From Rubripirellula reticaptiva (lineage in GTDB: Bacteria; Planctomycetota; Planctomycetia; Pirellulales; Pirellulaceae): a DNA stretch of 64,000 nt. Positions 17,037-28,155 of the stretch are shown here, piece by piece (the first letter of the stretch is position 1; each line of letters opens with the position of its first letter). The position numbers were made by a program, and so were the translations under genes. Under the pieces are notes generated by a model. It made no database searches, was not told the origin of the DNA, and saw only the letters and a program-made list of their open reading frames with translations. The stretch lies in NCBI RefSeq assembly GCF_007860175.1, contig NZ_SJPX01000006.1, positions 622,074-686,073 of the forward strand, given 5' to 3'.

Positions 17037-18140
17037 TCACGACGTCGATGAGCCTCGGTAAAGCATCTCAGGTTTCTTTAGCTGCGTTGCGCGGGTGAGA
17101 GAGACGCGGTCGCTGCGGTTGGTGACGATGAACAACCTGTCACCCGATTGGATCGTCTGGTTTGGCTTTGGGTTTTTCAGCAAGCTTTGATCGGCGTGCC
17201 GGATCGCGACGACCATCATTCCACCTTCACAGGTTGATTGAAGATCGCCCAGCGAGCTTCCGATGATTTTGCTGGTTGATTCGATCGGGTACTCGTGAAT
17301 CGATAGACCCAGACTTTGCAGGTCTGATCGCAATCGTTCGCTCTGTTTCGGATCCGATAGCAACGATGCCGCGTTGGGGCACGAGATCATATTGGCGATT
17401 TTTGTCGCGCCGATCGCGGCAGGTAGGACGACATGGTTGGCACCGCTGCGAATCAGTTTACGCTGTGTCGCAGTCGACTCGCCGCGAGCGATAATTTCAA
17501 TTTCTTCGCTAAGCTCACGTGCTGTTAAGGTTATGAAAACGTTGGCTGCGTCATCCGGCAAGACAGTTGCCAGCACTCTAGCGCGAGCGATACCGGCACG
17601 CATGAGCGTGTCCTCTTCACCCGCGCTGCCGGTTACAACGAGATAACCCAGTTCGTCGGCTTGCGCGATTCGCTCTGGGTTGGAATCAACACAGACAAAC
17701 GGCTCGTCCAGTTCTTTCAACTCGCTAGCAAGCATGCGACCTACGCGACCAAAGCCGCAGATGATCACGTGGCCGTTAGCCTGTTCAATTCCGCGACTCA
17801 TTCGTCTGACTCCCAATACACGTTGAATCTCGCCTTCGGCAACCATTTGTACGAATCCACCCACGACGTAAATCCCTGAGGAACAACCCGCGACGATGAT
17901 CAGCGCAGTGAAGACCTTCAGCCTTGGAGTATCAATAGGCTGTACTTCGCCATAGCCAACTCCGAATATGGTGATCACGACCATGTACAGCGAATCAACC
18001 AGTGACCAGCCTGCGATCGAATATCCGACCACCGCCGCCACACAAGTTGCGCAAAAGAAACCGATGCCGACGATCATTTTGCGAATTGAAGTGCTGTTTT
18101 GCATCACGCGGTTCGAAAGACAAGATCGTTCATTTTCCAT
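17037..18140 (-). CDS. Two-TM potassium channel with RCK domains
   Basis: A 367-residue Kch/MthK-type channel. Two membrane helices (about 22-42 and 73-95) flank a pore loop whose selectivity filter TIFGVGYGE is at 57-65. A TrkA_N (RCK) domain follows with the nucleotide-binding glycine motif IICGFGRVGRML (about 121-132) and the acidic partner CVDSNPERI. The C-terminus is a TrkA_C domain (about 275-345). The channel should conduct K+ across the cytoplasmic membrane, gated by a ligand bound to the RCK ring. GAGG lies just before ATG 18140; a start at residue 13 is possible. It is separated from the PQQ-like gene by about 425 bases and probably has its own promoter. Confidence 0.9.
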   Translation of the reverse strand: MENERSCLSNRVMQNSTSIRKMIVGIGFFCATCVAAVVGYSIAGWSLVDSLYMVVITIFGVGYGEVQPIDTPRLKVFTALIIVAGCSSGIYVVGGFVQMVAEGEIQRVLGVRRMSRGIEQANGHVIICGFGRVGRMLASELKELDEPFVCVDSNPERIAQADELGYLVVTGSAGEEDTLMRAGIARARVLATVLPDDAANVFITLTARELSEEIEIIARGESTATQRKLIRSGANHVVLPAAIGATKIANMISCPNAASLLSDPKQSERLRSDLQSLGLSIHEYPIESTSKIIGSSLGDLQSTCEGGMMVVAIRHADQSLLKNPKPNQTIQSGDRLFIVTNRSDRVSLTRATQLKKPEMLYRGSSTS

Positions 18141-18565: not shown

Positions 18566-19807
18566 TCATTTGGCTCGCAGGTCAAAGCACAACAGAATAT
18601 CTTGGTCACGAAGGTAGAGTTTGCCGTCGGAGATAACCGGATGGGCCCAGGCCTTTTCGTCACTTCGGTCCGGCTGTTCAAATCGACTTTTTTCACGAAG
18701 ACCTTCGGGCGTGGCTTCGATCAACGCGACGTCACCCGATTCGCCTCGCAAGTAAAGATGTCCGTCGGCATACACAGTGGCTCCCTTTCCGACACTGCGT
18801 CCCTCAAAGGCGAGCTCTCCGTTAGTGACATTGAGACAGCGAAAAACACCCCCGCTGGATCCATAGACGTGGGCGCCAACCAATACGACACCACCATGAT
18901 GATTGGCGATCTCTTGGTTGGCGTAGAGTTCTTCGGTGCTCCATGTTCCGTCGTCATTCTTAATCACGAATGCATTACAGCCGACACCGTAACCCGACGT
19001 CACGAAGACAACATCATCGGCCACGACTGGTGTTGGGACGACGGCGGTCTTGCCTTCACGTTCAGCACGCCAGAGCACTTCGCCAGAATCCGTATCCACG
19101 CCCGCCACACTTTCACCGGTCAATTGCACATACTGTCGTTTTCCACCGATCGTGGCGATGATCACTGAAGAGTAACCGGCAGTATCAGTCCAACTGCTGG
19201 TTTGCCAAATCTTTTCACCGGTTTCACGATTCAGCGCCAGCATCGTTCCGTCACTTCCGCCCGGTGTGCAGATGACTTGACGCCCGTCGACGAGAGGTGA
19301 TTCGCTGTATTTCCAACCCGACATCATCTCACCACCAAACCGCTCCACCAGATTCACGGACCAAAGAGATTCTCCGGTTTTCTCGTTAAGGCAAACCAAA
19401 TCAGAGTGTTGATTGAGCACGAAAACTTGGCCACCATCGACGGTGGGCGTGCTTCGCGGTCCTTTGTACTTTTTGTGACCGCCGGCGTCGCCAATTTTTG
19501 TTTTCCAAACTGGTGAACCGTCCGCCTCGGAAATAGCAACCACGTAATTTCCGTCATCGAAATCGCCGAGTGTGACGATCCGCCCATTGGCAACCGACAC
19601 GCTGGAGAATCCGCCGCCGAGCCCTTCCGCTTTCCACGCCAAGGGTGGACCTGATGCGGGCCACTGCGTCGAAAGGCCAGTTTCTTGCGATTGCGCATCA
19701 CGATTGGGACCACGCCACTGAGCCCAATCGTCGCCGCGAACGGTTGGTGAAGTCAGAAGGAAAAAAATTACGCTCAGTAACCCGCTTCGCGAAAAGTCTG
19801 CGTTCAT
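18566..19807 (-). CDS. Exported PQQ-like beta-propeller protein
   Basis: About 413 residues. ATG 19807 is chosen because AGGG lies six bases upstream; the longer frame begins at a TTG. A Sec signal ends around TVRGDDW. The mature protein opens with WAQWRGPNRDA, a signature of planctomycete PQQ-like propellers, and holds repeated tryptophan-docking blades (for example GDASWKT-like GSPVWKTKIG, GESLWSVNL, GEKIWQTSS, GEVLWRAE). Such proteins may bind PQQ or act only as scaffolds; no dehydrogenase residues are obvious, so enzymatic activity is unproven. It lies 124 bases after the GT4 gene at the end of the carbohydrate operon and might be a distal member. A degenerate copy of its tail is at 16865-16990. 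Confidence 0.85.
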   Translation of the reverse strand: MNADFSRSGLLSVIFFLLTSPTVRGDDWAQWRGPNRDAQSQETGLSTQWPASGPPLAWKAEGLGGGFSSVSVANGRIVTLGDFDDGNYVVAISEADGSPVWKTKIGDAGGHKKYKGPRSTPTVDGGQVFVLNQHSDLVCLNEKTGESLWSVNLVERFGGEMMSGWKYSESPLVDGRQVICTPGGSDGTMLALNRETGEKIWQTSSWTDTAGYSSVIIATIGGKRQYVQLTGESVAGVDTDSGEVLWRAEREGKTAVVPTPVVADDVVFVTSGYGVGCNAFVIKNDDGTWSTEELYANQEIANHHGGVVLVGAHVYGSSGGVFRCLNVTNGELAFEGRSVGKGATVYADGHLYLRGESGDVALIEATPEGLREKSRFEQPDRSDEKAWAHPVISDGKLYLRDQDILLCFDLRAK

Positions 19808-19930
19808 CAGTGACCCTATCAAGTGAGCCGAGGAATCCGTGCTTCCCCGAAAAGTTTACGTCGGAGCCGGTCTCCATCATACCTTCCCGGGACTCACGTG
19901 GAATGACTGAAACCGCCACACGCGGCTTCA

Positions 19931-20944
19931 CTATCGCTGGTCAAAGATGCGTTGATAGAGTGTCAAATACTCATCAGCCATTCGATCGATAGTAAAACGT
20001 TCCGCGACGGCACGGCGCACGGTCGCGCGATCGATCTCGTCAATCCGCTCGATTGCCCGACTTGCTCCGGCGAGGTTGTCGACTAGGAATCCGGTGACGC
20101 CGTCGTCAATCAATTCGGGCATCGATCCACGCCGCGAAGCGATGACGGGCGTTCCGCACGCCATCGCTTCGATCACCGAAAGCCCGAACGGTTCGTCAAA
20201 GTTGATCAGATGCAAAAGTGCGCGGGCCTCGCCGAGGGCGCGTTGCCGCAGCGTTCCACCGACTGCTCCGTGATAGGACACTGTAGCGCCGTCAACGGCT
20301 GGCAAGACTTCTCGTTCGAAATAGTCTGCATCTTGAACGATGCCGTACATATGTAGGTTTCGCCCGCTAGCTTTTGCCGCCGCGATTGCCTCGGACGGGC
20401 CTTTATCAGGATGGATTCGCCCAAAGAAGAGCAAGTCGTCGCTGCCCTTCGGATGGAACGGGAACTCCTCAATTGGAATGCCGTGATGAATCGTCGCGGC
20501 GTAGCGCAGATCCGGATGACGATCGGCATCCGAGATGGCGACGTAATGAACCACGTCTTGAAATTCTGTGTACATCGGCAGGATGCGTTGGGACGAGAAA
20601 CCGTGAATTGTGGTCACGATTGGTGTGTCGGTTAGACGCGAGAAAGCGTGTGCCGGAAAGTCCGCTTGATTGTGTATCAAATCAAACCGATCGGCTTGTT
20701 CAAAGAGGTGGGCAAGGTGCCGGAACTCCCAAACCTTTGCGTCAATCGAAGCGTCTTCTTCATAGGCGGCTGGCACAACACCGTCGAGCGCTGCATCGGT
20801 AATGCTGTCGAGTGTGGCGAAAAGCGTGACGTCAACGCCACGCTCGACGAGTGCTTCGGTCAACATGCTGGTGACAAGTTCCCAAGGGCCGTAGGTTTTT
20901 GGCGGCGTTCGCCAGGCGATCGGAGCCAACATTGCGATACGCAT
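19931..20944 (-). CDS. GT4 glycosyltransferase
   Basis: A 337-residue GT-B fold enzyme of family GT4. The N-terminal acceptor half starts MRIAMLAPIAWRTPP with the glycine-aromatic YGPWE; the C-terminal donor half has LFFGRIHPDKGP and the family motif EPFGLSVIEAMACGTPVIA, whose two glutamates bind the nucleotide-sugar. No membrane segment, so it acts in the cytoplasm or at the inner membrane face. Donor and acceptor cannot be read from sequence. The start follows the GH13 stop by one base with GAGAAG upstream, so it is translationally linked to that gene. It is the last of the seven tightly packed genes of the operon and probably builds the same sugar that the GH130 and GH13 enzymes process. 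Confidence 0.9.
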   Translation of the reverse strand: MRIAMLAPIAWRTPPKTYGPWELVTSMLTEALVERGVDVTLFATLDSITDAALDGVVPAAYEEDASIDAKVWEFRHLAHLFEQADRFDLIHNQADFPAHAFSRLTDTPIVTTIHGFSSQRILPMYTEFQDVVHYVAISDADRHPDLRYAATIHHGIPIEEFPFHPKGSDDLLFFGRIHPDKGPSEAIAAAKASGRNLHMYGIVQDADYFEREVLPAVDGATVSYHGAVGGTLRQRALGEARALLHLINFDEPFGLSVIEAMACGTPVIASRRGSMPELIDDGVTGFLVDNLAGASRAIERIDEIDRATVRRAVAERFTIDRMADEYLTLYQRIFDQR

Positions 20945-20945
20945 T

Positions 20946-22550
20946 TCAACTCTTCTCTTTTAGTTCGAGTACGAGACCTTCGTTCGGATCCAGCGTGCTG
21001 CTGATCGGACGGATCGGCTTTGTCGAACAAAGCACTTTGGCAATGCAGGTGTTTTCGGGCAGCAACAACGGCCGCGGCTCGTCACTGAGATTTAGCGCGA
21101 TCAACAAAATCTCGTTCGCACGTTGCCGTCTGTAAGCAAGCACATCATCGGCCGCGTCCACAAGCGTGAGATCGCCGATCGAGAGCGCATTGTGGGATCG
21201 CCGGAGGGCTAGCAGCGATCGGTAAAGTGACAGAATGGAATTGTCGTCCTGGTCCTGTGCCGCAACGTTGCGTTCTCGCCAGTCTTCGTTGAGCGGAAGC
21301 CAAGGCTCGACCGTGCTAAATCCTGCCTGGGCCGACGAATTCCAGGGGATCGGCGTGCGTGAACGATCGCGACCGATACCAAGATCGGGCTGACGCAGAT
21401 CCTGTGGATCACGCACTCGATTGGGCGGAATTTGTACCTCGCCAATACCGATCTCGTCACCTTGATAGAGCGTCGGTGTCCCACGAAGCGTCAGCAACAG
21501 CATGGCTGCGATTCGTGCTTGTGCCTCGCCAATCTTTGCCGCAATGCGGGGTGCGTCATGACTGCCGATCACCCAGTTGGGCCAACCGAACGAGGGCAGC
21601 GACGCTTCGTAGTCGGAAATTGTTTTCCGAAGTGTGACTGCGTCCCAGGCCGTTTCCATCAGTTGGAAGTTGAACGGCAGATGCACTTGCGGATGATCTT
21701 CGGTTCCGTACCAACAAGCGAGTCGATCGTTGGGCAAACAGATCTCGCCGACTAGGACGCGGTCGCCGTAGCTATCTGCCAACGCACGGAACTCTGCCGT
21801 GATCTCGTGGGCCTCTGGCTGGTCGGTTGAGTACCGCTGAATCAACCGGTCTCGTTCGGTGACGTTTGGCGTCCACATTGGGTTGATTGGATTGTTGCGA
21901 AAGGCAACGTCCTTGACGATATGCCAAAGAACGTCAATTCGGAATCCGTCGACGCCACGATCGAACCAGAATCGCAAAACCGCCATCATCGCTTCACGTA
22001 GATCGGGATTTCGCCAGTTGAGATCGGGTTGCTCTTTGAGAAACGCATGAAGATAGTATTGCCCGGTCGCCGCGTCCCACTGCCATGACGAGCCACCGAA
22101 ATCGCTGATCCAATTGTTGGGCGGTCCCCCACCGGGCAGGGGATCTCGCCAGATGTACCAGTCACGTTTGGGGCTCTCGCGTGACGATCGGCTTTCGATA
22201 AACCATGGATGTTGGTCGGACGAATGATTGGGAACGAAATCAAGCAGAAGTTTCAGACCTCGCGAGTGAACCCCATCAAGCAACCGATCGAAAGCATCCA
22301 AATCGCCAAACATCGGATCGATGTCACAATAATCGGCCACGTCATAGCCGAAGTCTGCCATTGGTGACGGATAGATTGGTGAGAGCCAAATCGCGTCGAT
22401 CCCAAAATTCGCGAGATAATCTAGCCGCGCCTCGATTCCTGCTAGATCACCGACCCCGTCCGCATCGCTATCCTGAAACGAGCGAGGATAGATCTGGTAG
22501 ATGACTCCAATTTTCCACCACGGATGCTTTGTCAGTGTTTGGCGGACCAT
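20946..22550 (-). CDS. GH13 alpha-glucosidase/trehalose-synthase-like enzyme
   Basis: A 534-residue family GH13 enzyme. The start WWKIGVIYQIYPRSF and GIDAIWLSPIYPSP are typical of the oligo-1,6-glucosidase/alpha-glucosidase group. Catalytic residues are all present: nucleophile Asp206 in GFRIDVLW, acid/base Glu269 in LVGEI and transition-state His331-Asp332 in GSHDAPR, where Ala-Pro replaces the usual Asn. The QGDEIG motif is also seen. There is no signal peptide, so it is cytoplasmic. It hydrolyses or transfers alpha-glucosyl units; whether it is a hydrolase, trehalose synthase-like isomerase or a sucrose-type phosphorolytic relative cannot be decided. It lies 56 bases after the GH130 gene and one base before the GT4 gene. 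Confidence 0.9.
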   Translation of the reverse strand: MVRQTLTKHPWWKIGVIYQIYPRSFQDSDADGVGDLAGIEARLDYLANFGIDAIWLSPIYPSPMADFGYDVADYCDIDPMFGDLDAFDRLLDGVHSRGLKLLLDFVPNHSSDQHPWFIESRSSRESPKRDWYIWRDPLPGGGPPNNWISDFGGSSWQWDAATGQYYLHAFLKEQPDLNWRNPDLREAMMAVLRFWFDRGVDGFRIDVLWHIVKDVAFRNNPINPMWTPNVTERDRLIQRYSTDQPEAHEITAEFRALADSYGDRVLVGEICLPNDRLACWYGTEDHPQVHLPFNFQLMETAWDAVTLRKTISDYEASLPSFGWPNWVIGSHDAPRIAAKIGEAQARIAAMLLLTLRGTPTLYQGDEIGIGEVQIPPNRVRDPQDLRQPDLGIGRDRSRTPIPWNSSAQAGFSTVEPWLPLNEDWRERNVAAQDQDDNSILSLYRSLLALRRSHNALSIGDLTLVDAADDVLAYRRQRANEILLIALNLSDEPRPLLLPENTCIAKVLCSTKPIRPISSTLDPNEGLVLELKEKS

Positions 22551-22606
22551 GCCGAATCATCTCAGATCGTTGGACTAGGGATCGACGTCATCGTCAAGTG
22601 ATGCCG

Positions 22607-24052
22607 CTAAGACATCGACGAAAGCAACTCGTCGATTGCGATGGTCGCAAACGTTGTAGCGTAATCCGACATCGCGTATGGAATAACAAGGTGTTGTTCG
22701 TGCACGATCGCACCACAGGAATATACAACGTTCGGAACATAGCCTTCGCGTTCGACTTCGTTGGGCGTAATTAACGGTTCATGCAAGCGTGCCAGAATCT
22801 TGGATGGATCATCCAGATCCAACAACATCGCGCCGATGCAGTACTTTCGCATCGGGCCGACGCCGTGGGTAAGGACGAGCCAACCTGATTCCGTTTCAAT
22901 TGGCGAGCCACAGTTGCCCATCTGAACGTACTCCCATGGATTGGCCGGCTTGATAATCAATTCGCTTGTGTGCCAAAAATACAACATGTCCGAGTACATC
23001 AAGAACAAATGCTCGCCATCTTGGCGGCCTAGCATCGCGTAGTGACCGTTGATTTTCCGAGGAAACAACGCCATGCCTTTGTTGGAAACGGCGGGACCGT
23101 TGAGAGTGTGCATTTTGAACCGCAGGAAATCCGACGTCTCTAGCAGTTGTGGCAATACCAATTGACCATCGTAGGCGCTGTAGGTGGCATAGTACCGACT
23201 GCTACCATCATCTTCCTGGAAGTGCACAAACCGGGCGTCTTCAATTCCGTTGCTTTCCGATGGACTGAAGGGAAAAATCAAACGCTCGGACAGTTCATGA
23301 TCCGGCGTGTACTGGATCTCGTAGTTCGATTTTGCCAGCATGACAACTCGCTCGACCAATGGCGCAAGCTCGTCATGACGGGATCGGTGTTCCCGCAGCG
23401 AAGCCTTCAAACGGCCCTCCAGATCACTGAGCGTGAATGCCGCTGGGAGCGCAGCCAGGACCTCGTAGGTGAACGCAGTTCCGAGACCTAGTTCAATCAG
23501 TTTGCGTCGAAACAAGTCGTTGTCGTAACACGAATCGGGAACAAATCGCGGAGTTGTAACGAACCGGACAGGTTCGTCAACGATGATCTTCAAATTACTG
23601 TCGATCGTTCCGCTGCGAAAAACGATGGAGGAAATGTGACCTTCGCCAACCGCACGCAGGCTCATTGCAAACCGCCGCGTTCCAGTCGGCAGATTTGTCT
23701 GGTCGGGATGCCATACCAGCGAAGGATTGAACAAGGCCGCGGATTCTAGCGCGTACTCCTGAGTGAAGTACGCCCCCAACAGCATTCGACGGTTCTCACT
23801 AAGCGGAGTGTCGGTGAGCAGATGGTGTTTGATGTCTTGAAATCGTCGCTTAAAAAACGCCTTGGGTTTCTGGTGCCGACCGTGAAATTCTTCCAGCACG
23901 TGAGCAAGTTGCTCGTCAACCTGCTGTTCCGACAACGTGCAAACCCGACCGATTACCCGCAGCACACGGTCGTTGCCAGGCGGCTGGAACGGTCGCAAAA
24001 CGACACGTTGCTTGTTGGGGGAAAGAACGATTCCGGTTCGATTGATTGACAT
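22607..24052 (-). CDS. GH130 mannoside phosphorylase-like enzyme (long form)
   Basis: About 481 residues from ATG 24052 (a TTG nine bases upstream is less likely). Family GH130 phosphorolyses beta-mannosides, releasing alpha-mannose 1-phosphate. Visible landmarks are NPSLVWHPD (about residue 113), FSPSESNGIEDARFVHF with the catalytic-region aspartate, NDKGMALFPRK-like NKGMALFPRKINGHYAML, WLVLTHGVGP and the closing VPNVVYSCGAIVH. An N-terminal segment of about 110 residues (helical, with QPPGNDRVLRVIGRV) is not part of the five-bladed propeller; it may drive oligomerisation. It is one of two GH130 genes in the operon and the two are not close in sequence, so different linkages or chain lengths are likely. 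Gap to the GT4-fusion gene is 66 bases. Confidence 0.87.
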   Translation of the reverse strand: MSINRTGIVLSPNKQRVVLRPFQPPGNDRVLRVIGRVCTLSEQQVDEQLAHVLEEFHGRHQKPKAFFKRRFQDIKHHLLTDTPLSENRRMLLGAYFTQEYALESAALFNPSLVWHPDQTNLPTGTRRFAMSLRAVGEGHISSIVFRSGTIDSNLKIIVDEPVRFVTTPRFVPDSCYDNDLFRRKLIELGLGTAFTYEVLAALPAAFTLSDLEGRLKASLREHRSRHDELAPLVERVVMLAKSNYEIQYTPDHELSERLIFPFSPSESNGIEDARFVHFQEDDGSSRYYATYSAYDGQLVLPQLLETSDFLRFKMHTLNGPAVSNKGMALFPRKINGHYAMLGRQDGEHLFLMYSDMLYFWHTSELIIKPANPWEYVQMGNCGSPIETESGWLVLTHGVGPMRKYCIGAMLLDLDDPSKILARLHEPLITPNEVEREGYVPNVVYSCGAIVHEQHLVIPYAMSDYATTFATIAIDELLSSMS

Positions 24053-24118
24053 GAAATTCAATGAGAATTGAGCAGGCTGCTAACCTGTTGGACGGACAGA
24101 ACGAGCGGGAAGCCTGTA

Positions 24119-26386
24119 CTAAGTGTTTGTGGTCAGAACGCGCATGTTGGCGTTATGGCCACGCATTTCGACAAGTGAGAGCAAGAACGCAAGTGTCGAT
24201 TCAGCGCCCTGGTTTTCGTTAACTTGGTTTTCCATCAAACCGTCGAAACAACCGCCGGTGGAAGCGTCATAGATCGGCTGGCCTAAATCATTACGACCGA
24301 GAAACCAATCAAACGCCAAGTGTGCTTGTTCATTCCAGAAAGAATCTTTGGCGACCGCAAACGCTTCGATCGATGCTGACACCATCGCATGAGCTTCAAT
24401 GGCTTGCTGGTCGTAAACCGCCGCTATCCCGCCATCGCGGCTGAAGCCGTTAGAACCGATCGGGCGAAAACGTCCCTGCGGCGAGAGCTGCTTTTCGCAC
24501 AGCCACCTTAGCGATGTTAAGCCAATTTCCACCGCTCGCTGATCATCAACCAAGCGACCGTGGGTAATCAATGCCTGCGATAGTTTGGCGTTGTTGTATG
24601 TCGTGATGTCTTCGAACCAAGGCCAGTCGTCGGTTGCCGTGACGCGGTACATTTCGACGAGTCGGTCGGCAAGCTGTTGGGCCATCGTCACCGCGGCACG
24701 GTCGCCGCCGTAACGTCGCAAATATTCGTGGATGCCGATGATGCCAAGCGCCCACGTTCTTGGTGAAGTCGTCTGCTCGCACGCGGGCAGTGCGCGATGA
24801 AACAACTCACGAGCCCAAGAAGCCAACCCCGCCCGGCGAGACCTTCCGATGCACGTTCCAAGTGCCCACATCGCTCGGCCTTGCGAGTCATCGGAACCGT
24901 CCTCCTCTAACCACCGCCGGTCAAAGCTCATGAAATTGCGAAAGCGTCCTGTATCTCGATTGAACGCACCATTTAAGAAGGCAGCGTAACGAGACGAAAG
25001 CGAATTGACGTCCGTCTTGTCGTTACCTTGCTCTTCCAACAAGACGGTTAGGATCAATCCCCTGGCGTTGTCATCGGTACAGTAACCATGGGTATGATCA
25101 GGAATCGAATAGATTGCGTGCTGGATAATTCCGGTCGAGTCACTGAGGTTTCGCAGATGAGCAAGTTGCAATTGCGGCAGTGCAAGCGGCTGCTCGTCGA
25201 GCGTCCGAACGGCAAGAGGTTTTAACGAGGGGCTGCGTTGATTTCGTGCTCGATCGAAAGAGTCAATGTAAAGCTGCGAAACGTGGTCCCAAGTCATGCA
25301 TCGCCCTAATTCGTGGGCCCGAGCTCGCATGGCAAGACGTTGATCGTCGTCACCAAGCAACCCGATCACTTCGCGAGCGATTGCAGACGAGTCGGCAAAA
25401 GGAACCAGCACCCCACGACCATCGGCAAGCAGTTCCTCGGCGTGCCAATACGGAGTGGAGATTACAGCCTGGCCACAGCCAAAAGCGTAGGCCAACGTCC
25501 CCGATACAGCTTGCTGTACGTTCAGATAGGGAGTGATATACAGGTCGGCAGCACCGATGAATTCGGTTAACTCTTCCAGCTCGACAAAGCGATTGTAAAA
25601 ACTGACGTTCTTTGTGATACCAAGTTCTTTAGCCATGCGTTCCAGGCTGATCCGATAGCGTTCGCCTTGTTCGCGAATCAAACTTGGGTGCGTCGCCCCT
25701 AGAACGATATAGATTAAATCGGGAAACTTGGCAACGATCTCGGGGATCGCTTGCAACACATGCTCAATGCCTTTGCCGGGCGAAAGCAGACCAAACGTCA
25801 GCGCAACTAGCTTGTTCTCGACATTGAATTGCTCTTTCAAGACGCGTTGGTCCGCATCAGGAGCATTGGGGATTCCGTGCGCGATCAAGTCAACTTGGTC
25901 ACGATCGACTGCATAGGTGTTCATTAACGTTTGACGACAACGATCGGTCATCACAACCAACCGAGTCGACAATCGAATGAGCTGCATCATCACAGCCCGC
26001 TGCGTCTGACTCGGCTCCGACAAGACGGTGTGCAAAGTTGTGACGACCGGCATTCGCAGATCATGCAGCAGCGCCAAAATGTGACTGCCGCAGGGCCCAC
26101 CGTAGATTCCGAATTCGTGCTGAAGCGAAACGACGTCGACGTCGCTGAAGTTCAAAAAGTCGGCTGCAGCCCGGTACTCGTCCAGATCTTGTTCGGCAAC
26201 TTGAAACTGAACTTCATCCTCATACGCGTAACCGCCCGCGATATCGTCCATCGCGACAACGACGCACTCTGCATGCGACTCTTTGGCTACCGCAATTCGC
26301 AAATCATGAGTGAATGTCGCGATACCACATTTGCGAGGCAAATAGTCACCAACAAAAGCGATCTTGCATAAGGCGGGGGTAGTCAT
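24119..26386 (-). CDS. GT4 glycosyltransferase with C-terminal helical toroid-like domain
   Basis: A 755-residue two-domain protein. Residues 1-390 form a GT4 enzyme beginning GDYLPRKCGIATFTHDLR, with SLQHEFGIYGG, TFGLLSPGKGIEHVLQAI and a donor-site region GADLYITPYLN and VSGTLAYAFGCGQAVIST. Residues 415-745 are a helical domain with aromatic repeats (TDDNARGLI, FNRDTGRFRNFMSFDRRW, EDITTYNNAKLSQALI, DPTTGGCFDGL-like STGGCFDGL), resembling an (alpha/alpha)6 toroid. The second part could be a hydrolase, epimerase or lyase-like module acting on the glycan made by the first. No signal peptide. It sits between the two GH130 genes with 20 and 66 base gaps, so transfer and phosphorolysis are encoded together. 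Confidence 0.85.
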   Translation of the reverse strand: MTTPALCKIAFVGDYLPRKCGIATFTHDLRIAVAKESHAECVVVAMDDIAGGYAYEDEVQFQVAEQDLDEYRAAADFLNFSDVDVVSLQHEFGIYGGPCGSHILALLHDLRMPVVTTLHTVLSEPSQTQRAVMMQLIRLSTRLVVMTDRCRQTLMNTYAVDRDQVDLIAHGIPNAPDADQRVLKEQFNVENKLVALTFGLLSPGKGIEHVLQAIPEIVAKFPDLIYIVLGATHPSLIREQGERYRISLERMAKELGITKNVSFYNRFVELEELTEFIGAADLYITPYLNVQQAVSGTLAYAFGCGQAVISTPYWHAEELLADGRGVLVPFADSSAIAREVIGLLGDDDQRLAMRARAHELGRCMTWDHVSQLYIDSFDRARNQRSPSLKPLAVRTLDEQPLALPQLQLAHLRNLSDSTGIIQHAIYSIPDHTHGYCTDDNARGLILTVLLEEQGNDKTDVNSLSSRYAAFLNGAFNRDTGRFRNFMSFDRRWLEEDGSDDSQGRAMWALGTCIGRSRRAGLASWARELFHRALPACEQTTSPRTWALGIIGIHEYLRRYGGDRAAVTMAQQLADRLVEMYRVTATDDWPWFEDITTYNNAKLSQALITHGRLVDDQRAVEIGLTSLRWLCEKQLSPQGRFRPIGSNGFSRDGGIAAVYDQQAIEAHAMVSASIEAFAVAKDSFWNEQAHLAFDWFLGRNDLGQPIYDASTGGCFDGLMENQVNENQGAESTLAFLLSLVEMRGHNANMRVLTTNT

Positions 26387-26406
26387 TGTTGTGAAGTACT
26401 TTGGTT

Positions 26407-27465
26407 TTATAATTCAAGCGAATCCAGCAAGGATTGCTTCGAGAAACGCGACGATGCGACAGTCGTGTCGGCAGCTCCGTAGAAAACCTCCAACTCGTCG
26501 CCTCGATCAAGCATTGCAGTCGGAAACACGACATTGGGCACGAACCCACTCGTTTCGAAATCGGTGGTTGGCTGCATGATCGGCTTGCTTGAACGAGCTA
26601 AAACACGCTGGGGTCGATCTCGATCGAGCAGCAGAGCGCCGGCGCAGTAGCGGCCCACGGTACCTGGGACGTTGGTAGGCGTGCTGCCGTGATAGAGCGT
26701 CAGCCAGCCTTCATCGCACAAAATCGGTGGCGTTCCACTGCCAACGCGATCACCTTCCCAAGCCTGGACGCCGCCAAGGACAAATTCGTGGCGCCCCCAG
26801 TGAATGAGGTCGGGCGAACGAGCGAGCCAGATCTGGGGAGGGCTAAAGTGCGAGTGCGGATTTGGCCGATGCAGCGCAACAAAGTCACCCTCGATACGAC
26901 GGGGAAAGAGCACGACATCTTTGTTTTCGCTTGGAAAAACAATCCCGTGTCGCTGGAAGGTTGCCAGGTCCGGCGAAGACATCAGTGCCGTCGCCGCGCC
27001 GAACCGAGAGACCGCGACGTAGGTGATCCAGTAGGTGTTGTCGATCTTGGTGATCCGAGGATCCTCGATGCCAAACTCTTCCCAAGGTCCTTCGGGCAGT
27101 ATCGCACCAGATCGCTGCCATGTGCGTTCGCCGGACACGCCGCTGCGAAAGATTTGCAAGTGCGATACGGACGTCAAACGCAGGTTGCCGCCGTTCTTTA
27201 TCGCAACAACACGTGCGTCCGTGTGGCTCACATCCCCATCACGAACCCAATCCACTTCCGCAGTGCCTGTCGAAGACCAATGGGGAAGCGGAGTCCAACC
27301 CGTACGTTGCTCACTTGTACGCTCAGCGACTCTCGCCAGCATGACCGTTTCGTCAGCCACCATCGCAACGGCTGGATTGAATACGCCGATAACTTCCCAG
27401 TCACCACACGATGCTTGAACATCGCAAGGCCCCAGCAAGAGGGTACTAGCGGCGACTGGCAACAT
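26407..27465 (-). CDS. GH130 phosphorylase-like enzyme (short form)
   Basis: About 352 residues with the complete GH130 core and no long N-terminal extension. Landmarks: GVFNPAV (about residue 26), FGIEDPRITKID with the presumed proton-donor aspartate, DVVLFPRRIEGDFVALHRP, SGTPPILCDEGWLTLYHGS and VPNVVFPTAML near the end. The family phosphorolyses beta-1,4- or 1,2-mannosides; a purely hydrolytic role is known for some members. ATG 27465 is used; a GTG two codons earlier is possible. The start overlaps the end of the CsbD-like gene (stop 27446) by about 20 bases, so the genes are coupled. The second GH130 of the operon (22607-24052) is a distant paralog. Confidence 0.88.
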   Translation of the reverse strand: MLPVAASTLLLGPCDVQASCGDWEVIGVFNPAVAMVADETVMLARVAERTSEQRTGWTPLPHWSSTGTAEVDWVRDGDVSHTDARVVAIKNGGNLRLTSVSHLQIFRSGVSGERTWQRSGAILPEGPWEEFGIEDPRITKIDNTYWITYVAVSRFGAATALMSSPDLATFQRHGIVFPSENKDVVLFPRRIEGDFVALHRPNPHSHFSPPQIWLARSPDLIHWGRHEFVLGGVQAWEGDRVGSGTPPILCDEGWLTLYHGSTPTNVPGTVGRYCAGALLLDRDRPQRVLARSSKPIMQPTTDFETSGFVPNVVFPTAMLDRGDELEVFYGAADTTVASSRFSKQSLLDSLEL

Positions 27466-27733
27466 GAACACGCCCCCGCACTTTTTCCAGCAGTCGTGCG
27501 AGCCAGCCTAGCCTGTTCCGCTTTTTACTTTCGACTTGAAGTCCGTCGACAAAGGCGTCCACTTTTTGCTGGGCAAGCGCATCCGGGTAGCTGTACCTTT
27601 GCGAGAGAACTCGCACAAACGAATCACGCTCGCCGTGGATCATCGCCAAGTCGGCCTCGTCGATTCTTCCCCAAGTTCGTTTGACAACTGCCTGAACGGT
27701 CGGCCACTGTTGTTTGACTTGTTTCCAATTCAC
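27446..27733 (-). CDS. CsbD-like stress protein
   Basis: A 95-residue protein starting at GTG 27733 that overlaps the TGA of the preceding gene (GTGA), so it is translated by coupling. It resembles the CsbD family: MNWKQVKQQW at the start, WGRIDEADLAMIHGERDSFVRVLSQRYS in the middle and a basic helical end. The family is induced by general stress in other bacteria (SigB regulon in Bacillus), and its molecular function is not known. Here it is longer than the usual 60-70 residues because of a basic C-terminal tail (KKRNRLGWLARLLEK). Its place inside a carbohydrate operon suggests that the operon is stress controlled, which is inference. Confidence 0.75.
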   Translation of the reverse strand: MNWKQVKQQWPTVQAVVKRTWGRIDEADLAMIHGERDSFVRVLSQRYSYPDALAQQKVDAFVDGLQVESKKRNRLGWLARLLEKVRGRVHVASRR

Positions 27734-28155
27734 GGCGTTATCTTTGGAAGTGCGTAAGCCGAAGCGGCCTCAATCCGGTACTCATGCGTCGACTCGTCCA
27801 GAATGAGCCGGTGCGAGATCGCCACGTTTTCCGAACTACTCTGAAACGATTCCAACACCGATTGCAATGTCGCGGCGAAAAGAATCGGTTCTGTCGAAGA
27901 AACTGCGTCGAGCACAACCAATTTCAGAGAATCAATATCTTGCTCGATCTGATTCTTTAAGAAACCCTTCACCAACGGATACGGCGTCAAACTGAGTTCA
28001 CTCGACGATAGAAATTCGTCGTATTCGGGTTTGTCAGAAAAACCAAAGATAACCGTCGCGGGAACGTCCGATGATGCCTGCGAAACACAAGGACAAGTCG
28101 GATTCGATCCCTCGCGTAAGACATAACGCGGTGTCTTGGCAAAACCGTCCACCAT
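27730..28155 (-). CDS. Unknown protein, first gene of the carbohydrate operon
   Basis: A 141-residue protein. ATG 28155 is preceded by a perfect AAGGAGG site at 28161-28167, which decides the start; a longer frame up to 28329 lacks support. The protein has no signal peptide or membrane helix. It contains TCPCVSQASS near residue 20 and a mixed alpha/beta pattern (VIFGFSDKPEYDEF, LKLVVLDAV). I recognise no family. Its stop overlaps the start of the CsbD-like gene by four bases. As first gene of the transcript it may be regulatory or an accessory subunit, but nothing in the sequence shows which. Confidence 0.7.
   Translation of the reverse strand: MVDGFAKTPRYVLREGSNPTCPCVSQASSDVPATVIFGFSDKPEYDEFLSSSELSLTPYPLVKGFLKNQIEQDIDSLKLVVLDAVSSTEPILFAATLQSVLESFQSSSENVAISHRLILDESTHEYRIEAASAYALPKITP

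Follow-up and report, generated by a model that had tools for sequence, protein, structure and literature searches.

Seven genes on the minus strand at positions 19931-28155 of a 64,000-nucleotide stretch of Rubripirellula reticaptiva DNA (contig NZ_SJPX01000006.1, positions 622,074 to 686,073; the whole stretch is called the window below) contain a genuine module that is conserved widely and that, to the extent of the search made, has no published description. Its minimal unit is composed of one fusion protein, GTa-TOR, in which a domain derived from glycosyltransferase family 4 (GTa) is joined to an (alpha/alpha)6 domain (TOR), and one enzyme of glycoside hydrolase family 130 (GH130). We propose, as a tentative reading to which we give slightly less than even weight, that this module is a cytoplasmic system of mannoside synthesis and recycling, perhaps serving as a stress-time reserve or as a protective solute. 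In the window, the fusion lies between two GH130 genes (GHa and GHb), accompanied by a gene for a protein of 141 residues (U141), a CsbD-like gene, a GH13 gene and a second, canonical GT4 gene (GTb). A sequence-only reading of the same DNA had considered that no described pathway contains this set, and the open-access literature likewise yielded no description of the module among the matches listed.

Across phyla, GTa-TOR and a GH130 are conserved as a unit. When species genomes were scanned with TOR motifs alone, at least 498 related stretches were returned, the best 80 of which were kept as named loci; they lean towards the window's type, and their phylum labels are taken from record titles, mostly metagenome-assembled. 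Together with the window and 40 loci from its own genome and order (the order-wide neighbourhood set being hand-chosen, with full-length fusion copies and part of the split ones), they provide 122 TOR domains, locus L112 holding two, one of them weak. When every open frame was searched with profile hidden Markov models (HMMs), a GH130 was found within 3 kb of 113 of the 122 domains, or 110 of 119 after removal of three duplicates, which bears out the idea that the GT4 fusion and GH130 are kept together. By simple arithmetic from the 4 GH130 genes in the 7.85 Mb genome of R. reticaptiva, a random spot would lie that close to a GH130 in about 0.4% of cases. The neighbouring enzyme is of the GHb type only near 54 domains and of the GHa type only near 31, both types being present near 28. 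Among the named loci, the GH130 lies within 200 bases in 68 of 80, within 3 kb in 73 and within 3.5 kb in 76, and the nearest one is on the same strand as TOR in 74 of these 76. GTb is found within 5 kb in 15 of the 80 named loci, and all four core genes in 10, as well as on an Ilyobacter plasmid. A tree of 66 fusion proteins carries 13 phylum labels besides the plasmid rows and requires 18 label changes, against a minimum of 12 and a shuffled mean of 31.5 (16 unlabelled rows left out); this fits an old family with some transfer, without being proof of it.

Closer to the window, three further members of the genus (G148, G162 and G146) show the same succession of GHa, GTa-TOR, GHb, GH13 and GTb; all three also hold U141 (a short match in G146), and one of them holds the CsbD-like gene. 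This succession is partly visible in G155 and split over contigs in G161. In another genus of the family (G121), GH13-GTb lies about 4.5 kb upstream of a run formed by U141, the CsbD-like gene, a PtsI-like gene, GHa, GTa-TOR and GHb. The fusion was detected in 7 of 22 genomes of the genus and, at E 1e-20, in 46 of 146 genomes of the order, some through the GT4 half alone. At E 1e-150, 5 of 60 relatives had GH13, all belonging to a single genus, and it was also found in G121. On this distribution, GH13, U141 and the CsbD-like gene can be regarded as local additions to a wide core. The expectation that all seven genes would be conserved together is therefore upheld for GTa-TOR and GH130, and for GTb in part of the loci, whereas the other three are lineage-specific. 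Wherever it was computable, the ratio of non-synonymous to synonymous substitution rates (dN/dS) lay at 0.02-0.21 for every one of the seven genes, with synonymous sites near saturation and a single comparison each giving the value for the 95-residue CsbD-like gene and GTa-TOR; for U141 it was 0.15-0.18 in three comparisons, one over just 28 codons. All seven genes thus appear to be under purifying selection. Chance clustering of the operon genes was considered and ruled out by the recurring gene order, the GH130 adjacency and dN/dS.

Both GH130 enzymes of the window are nearest to enzymes of beta-1,2-mannosides. GHa (26407..27471, minus strand, 354 residues) and GHb (22607..24052, minus strand, 481 residues) match PF04041 at E 2e-48 and E 4e-30, with 165 and 106 bits against a cut-off of 26. 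The closest relatives of GHa, whose fold assignment is by sequence only, are the beta-1,2-mannobiose phosphorylase Lin0857 and the mannoside synthase Uhgb_MS (PDB 5b0p, E 1e-62; 9eqq, E 7e-62), and that of GHb is the 1,2-beta-oligomannan phosphorylase Teth514_1788 (PDB 9fj8, E 6e-33). The predicted model of GHb (predicted local distance difference test, pLDDT, 87.5) is a five-bladed beta-propeller with Z scores of 28.5-32 to solved GH130 phosphorylases over about 280 aligned residues (root-mean-square deviation, rmsd, 2.3-3.0), superposing best on Uhgb_MS, Lin0857, Teth514_1789 and Teth514_1788 (VIA-align Z 31-32, rmsd 2.3-2.9); its extra helices form an N-terminal extension (residues 27-95) and an insert (residues 178-241). 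The G-x-E-D motif with the catalytic Asp is invariant in both, as E136 and D137 in 26 of 26 aligned rows for GHa and as E271 and D272 in 32 of 32 for GHb. A conserved Arg and His (R202 and H261 in GHa, R343 and H396 in GHb) sit where the phosphate-binding basic residues that mark a phosphorylase rather than a hydrolase would be expected, and may be such residues. An assignment of the linkage from a single lysine (Lys199 of BT3780, PMC4599007) was dropped, its counterpart in GHa and GHb being uncertain. Enzymes of GH130 invert, act on beta-mannosides and yield mannose 1-phosphate (Man1P) (PMC8950772, PMC4599007).

GTa-TOR (24119..26386, minus strand, 755 residues) is composed of a GT4-derived GT-B domain (about residues 1-390) followed by an AGE-fold (alpha/alpha)6 domain (about residues 396-755), the predicted model having a pLDDT of 87.6. 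The first domain scores 61 bits against Pfam Glycos_transf_1 (cut-off 26.4), is closest in sequence to PimA and MshA, and adopts the GT-B fold with VIA-align Z scores of 34-37 to SPS, MshA and PimA. No Pfam family was found in the C-terminal half, and among 15 relatives of the fusion the non-GT4 families appeared only as isolated weak matches in one or two members each (best E 0.004, threshold E 0.1). Searched against PDB, the TOR sequence profile had YPO2471 as its sole match up to E 1 (E 1.5e-14). The fold comparison gave Z 38.5 to YPO2471 (rmsd 2.7, 335 aligned residues), Z 31.6 to RmCE (rmsd 3.2, 337 aligned) and Z of about 30-32 to AGE epimerases over 326-340 residues, the endoglucanase-related structure 3h7l scoring nearly as high (Z 29.7). 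H410 and H423 are the sole invariant His residues of TOR in 55 rows, in which many Asp and Glu are also fixed. Part of the order sample has two adjacent genes in place of the single fused one; a distant copy (G049:C79:1624-3879, 38% identical) has a TGA inside the match and fits the split two-gene form at L072. A second GTa-TOR, 49% identical, is present in the window's own genome, where it adjoins a third GH130 (G000:C6:280143-283341; L035:8105-11372).

GTb (19931..20944, minus strand, 337 residues) is nearest to the glucosylsucrose synthase TeGSS (PDB 7fg9, E 3e-69) and keeps both the EX7E motif and the R/K pair, with R176, K181, E251 and E259 in 15 of 15 rows. The genome itself contains a sucrose-phosphate synthase match over the family cut-off, which fits a TeGSS-like GTb. 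The GH13 enzyme (20946..22550, minus strand, 534 residues, PF00128 at E 1e-139) is nearest to alpha-glucosidases (PDB 3wy1, E 2e-138; 6aav, E 3e-136).

A connection with mannose is provided by plasmids, a fusion relative being carried at E 1e-30 by 28 of 72,556 plasmid records. Mannose-activation genes accompany the module in half of the 14 annotated plasmid regions, all seven alphaproteobacterial, so that the mannose link of the sequence-only reading does have a counterpart there. Mannose-6-phosphate isomerase is directly upstream of the module on Devosia, Neorhizobium and Sinorhizobium plasmids, and some kb off on a Croceicoccus plasmid whose GT4 gene lacks TOR. The guanylyltransferase ManC, confirmed by Pfam in one plasmid case, immediately precedes GTa-TOR in Sphingobium WTD-1 and S. 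paucimobilis, which share one plasmid island and are not independent. In Sphingobium xenophagum the run GroEL, ManC, ManA, GTa-TOR, GH130, phosphomannomutase contains the full route from fructose 6-phosphate through mannose 6-phosphate and Man1P to guanosine diphosphate mannose (GDP-mannose). Three of the 14 regions have stress genes (GroEL, or DnaK/GrpE/DnaJ/USP/Dps) beside the module, and two of the three represent one island. In these two, WTD-1 and S. paucimobilis, the module is flanked by genes for GrpE, DnaK, a J-domain protein, USP and Dps, with Hsp20 in one. With GroEL-like genes on 6 of 124 other loci (L036, L071, L095, L104, L118 and L137) and DnaK-like genes on none, a link to stress is retained, but osmotic stress as the trigger, as earlier suggested, is not supported. 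Two further observations were made on rhizobial plasmids. A His-Xaa-Ser (Hxs) radical SAM system lies a few kb from the module on two of them (L157:14921-17990 and L199:20656-22268), and on Neorhizobium galegae pNgVX (L163:9001-12606) the fusion and GH130 are in split reading frames, not listed as genes, and look broken.

On these grounds it can be hypothesised that GDP-mannose, or Man1P, serves GTa-TOR as the donor from which a mannoside is built or primed, and that the GH130s, being nearest to the beta-1,2 type, would lengthen or shorten a beta-mannose chain with Man1P and phosphate. Phosphorolysis by these enzymes would give back Man1P with no ATP spent. In the window, GTb would plausibly add alpha-glucose to a sucrose-like primer or to a linked solute, from which GH13 would plausibly remove it, and for the AGE-like TOR domain one can only guess at a part in trimming the product or in holding it. 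Mannose is the likely sugar, from GH130 and the plasmid neighbours. The latter favour GDP-mannose as the donor, while the residues missing from GTa argue for caution.

Several observations weigh against the proposed synthesis and recycling, some of which concern GTa itself. All 108 aligned rows (106 distinct) lack the EX7E motif and the donor-site Arg (GRLxxxKG), so the earlier statement that all catalytic motifs are present fails for this protein, and nucleotide-sugar use itself becomes uncertain. Leu200 occupies the place of the donor-site Arg (MshA register) in all 108 rows; residues 286-305 contain no conserved Glu, Q292, S295 and G296 being fixed instead in every row; and Tyr300 stands at the second Glu of EX7E (PimA register), as Tyr in 102 of 108 rows, the register of the first Glu being uncertain by 1-2 residues because of a loop-length difference. 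H119, K205, T232, H233 and R245 are further fixed positions. Moreover, GT4 enzymes are retaining, and a retaining GT4 acting on GDP-mannose would give an alpha-mannoside, which is not a GH130 substrate. A single pathway of transfer followed by phosphorolysis, as first imagined, is thus not directly compatible with retaining chemistry; it calls for a GT4 derivative that inverts or for an additional step. There may be three ways out: GTa, with its rebuilt donor site, could be inverting; it could supply the primer only, the GH130s building the beta chain from Man1P; or it could act without any nucleotide sugar. Other adverse points come from the loci. No GH130 was detected by HMM on the stretch covered in 4 of the 80 named loci, of which L087 and L122 had about 7 kb of room and L082 and L091 were near a contig end, a GHb-like fragment nevertheless being found at L082. 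By annotation, 7 of the 14 plasmid regions have no mannose-activation genes, two of these seven having an AGE-family epimerase next to GH130, and two of the annotated plasmid isomerases had no Pfam match at 0.001. When plasmid ManC, ManA, phosphomannomutase, GroEL and DnaK were used as queries against the 124 other loci (the window included, three without the module, many short, and with distant homologues escaping such a search), ManC-like genes were found on none, ManA-like on one (L109) and phosphomannomutase-like on one (L100). The mannose neighbours are consequently a feature of alphaproteobacterial plasmids, GH130 carrying the link elsewhere, and a wider mannose neighbourhood beyond plasmids was dropped.

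It could be argued instead that GTa-TOR is not a nucleotide-sugar transferase: the GH130s would make the beta-mannoside by reverse phosphorolysis from Man1P, and GTa-TOR would bind, prime or trim this product, or would use a sugar phosphate. The loss of EX7E and of the donor-site Arg in every row while other GTa positions are fixed, the place of Uhgb_MS, named a mannoside synthase, among the nearest GH130 relatives, and a stereochemistry that fits all speak in its favour; nevertheless, ManC is directly upstream of GTa-TOR in WTD-1 and S. paucimobilis and two genes upstream in S. xenophagum, and in a cell rich in phosphate and poor in Man1P, breakdown is usually the direction in which phosphorylases work. 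We consider this explanation unlikely. A role in the salvage of imported beta-mannosides, as put forward for Thermoanaerobacter, would have GH130 supplying Man1P for GDP-mannose that GT4 uses elsewhere. The Teth514 cluster likewise has two GH130s, a GT4 and a guanylyltransferase (PMC4264767), and the Deinococcus plasmid region, one of those lacking mannose genes, holds cellulase-family and GH18 genes. Some room for an uptake role is also left by a PtsI-like gene, encoding the phosphoenolpyruvate-utilising enzyme I of a sugar phosphotransferase system, which lies close to the module in 8 loci (Pfam confirming one member), for example L036:6001-7773, L078:2814-4688 and L039:6886-8640, and by an ABC-transporter ATPase cluster in 4 (type read by eye, one member). 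However, in none of the 14 plasmid regions does the annotation place a sugar importer immediately next to the module; the transporters there lie some kb off and either belong to other named kinds or have no substrate named. The Thermoanaerobacter proposal depends on an ABC importer within the cluster (PMC4264767). Salvage is in our view quite improbable.

It is about equally improbable that the product is not a polymer but a small compatible solute in which glucose is combined with mannose (mannosylglucosylglycerate or a glucosylsucrose derivative, for example). Rhodopirellula baltica does accumulate sucrose and trehalose, together with mannosylglucosylglycerate, whose accumulation depends on salt and nitrogen (PMC3694870), and GTb is nearest to a glucosylsucrose synthase. 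The module is nonetheless absent from most relatives, as the fusion counts for the genus (7 of 22) and for the order (46 of 146) show, which makes it an unlikely source of the usual solutes of the family. Furthermore, the linkages of mannosylglucosylglycerate are alpha and not substrates of GH130. Finally, the genes could be part of a cell-surface polysaccharide pathway, in which GT4 genes and ManC do occur; in the Devosia region, genes for an epimerase/dehydratase and for an acyltransferase-like protein are found about 8 kb off. We hold this to be very improbable, given that the annotation of the 14 plasmid regions includes no flippase, polymerase or polysaccharide exporter and that GH130 phosphorylases work with cytoplasmic phosphate (PMC4599007). 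To return to mannoside synthesis and recycling, it is tempting to go further and to see in GTa an offshoot of GT4 that has lost its retaining-type donor site and is now an inverting, GDP-mannose-dependent beta-mannosyltransferase joined to a new AGE-fold domain. This would give a mannogen-like cycle in many phyla, some of its copies on conjugative plasmids, with an intracellular beta-1,2-mannan spent by GH130 as a stress-time reserve of carbon and energy; so complete a scenario is speculative, and we would not expect it to hold as a whole.

As regards the operon itself, all seven open reading frames are present with the place and strand first described, and the account of a tightly packed minus-strand operon was confirmed in its coordinates and spacing (gaps of 66 bases or less, or overlaps). 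From their coordinates, U141 and the 95-residue gene overlap by 4 bases; the latter overlaps GHa by 26 bases, or 20 when counted from an internal ATG. The spacing is then 20 bases from GHa to GTa-TOR, 66 to GHb, 56 to GH13 and 1 base to GTb. Over their Pfam cut-offs, PF04041 was found in two genes, GT4 domains in two and Alpha-amylase (GH13) in one. U141 (27730..28155, minus strand) has no match in Pfam or NCBIfam at 0.01, and an alignment of 12 sequences exhibits a conserved motif around PYPLVKGYLKNQ; its homologues are near the module in 11 loci, the window counted. The 95-residue protein (27446..27733, minus strand) resembles CsbD/YjbJ through NCBIfam NF007748 (E 3.3e-8), but with 33.4 bits against a cut-off of 113 and no PF05532 (CsbD) match at 0.01; similar proteins beside other modules matched Pfam CsbD in 3 of 7 cases, all below the cut-off, so the CsbD-like label is a weak one. 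The counts given for U141, CsbD-like and PtsI genes depend on greedy calling of open reading frames, which lost genes to antisense frames. A further family of about 177 residues is near the module in 7 loci (for example L037:7028-7537, L039:4981-5496 and L041:5260-5775), the one member scanned having no Pfam match. At the two ends of the operon no promoter was found by a promoter scan, and a terminator scan gave one terminator-like site, against 0.7 in shuffles, and nothing clear. A PQQ-type beta-propeller protein (PQQ_2; 18566-19822, minus strand) is encoded directly downstream, 108 bases off, followed by a potassium-channel-like protein with Ion_trans_2, TrkA_N and TrkA_C (17037-18140, minus strand).

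If the synthesis and recycling reading is true, the module would provide many bacteria with a reserve of mannose, or with a stress solute, made by a dedicated synthase. A function would then be given to hundreds of proteins now named just 'glycosyltransferase family 4' or 'glycoside hydrolase family 130'. It would further reveal a branch of GT4 whose donor site has been rebuilt and which carries a fused (alpha/alpha)6 domain in which no Pfam family was found. Parts of such a system have known relatives. The fold of TOR is common to the AGE superfamily (cellobiose 2-epimerase, N-acylglucosamine 2-epimerase) and YPO2471, and an ordinary AGE epimerase was one reading considered for TOR, but the catalytic histidines of the epimerases are not evident among its invariant columns, which makes this reading doubtful. 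TeGSS, a UDP-glucose:sucrose alpha-1,2-glucosyltransferase, is a cyanobacterial glucosylsucrose synthase connected with salt and heat stress solutes (PMC9909042); GTb aligns with it end to end, but sits with GH130 and GTa-TOR and not beside sucrose-phosphate synthase. The Thermoanaerobacter cluster Teth514_1786-1796 likewise places two beta-1,2-type GH130s beside a GT4, the likeness of the latter being at the family level, and has a mannose-1-phosphate guanylyltransferase, as do some copies of the module (Sphingobium); it differs by its own ABC importer and a GH5, and it is explained as salvage (PMC4264767). The best reading, as yet unproven, would be that of a bacterial counterpart of the mannogen cycle of Leishmania, in which five-bladed beta-propeller GT108 enzymes, acting as dual glycosyltransferase-phosphorylases, turn over an intracellular beta-1,2-mannan with Man1P (PMC8950772). 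GHb shares this fold (Z 20.2 to 6q50 and 19.5 to 6q4y), but is much nearer to GH130 (Z 31-32), which GHa matches by sequence. Membership of GHb in GT108 is accordingly improbable, GH130 being nearer by both fold and sequence, and a profile search with GHb retrieved no Leishmania chain up to E 1. To our knowledge, the mannogen enzymes have no GT4-derived/AGE-like fusion, and it is this fusion, a GT4-derived domain together with an AGE-like domain, that the bacterial module adds to the phosphorylases.

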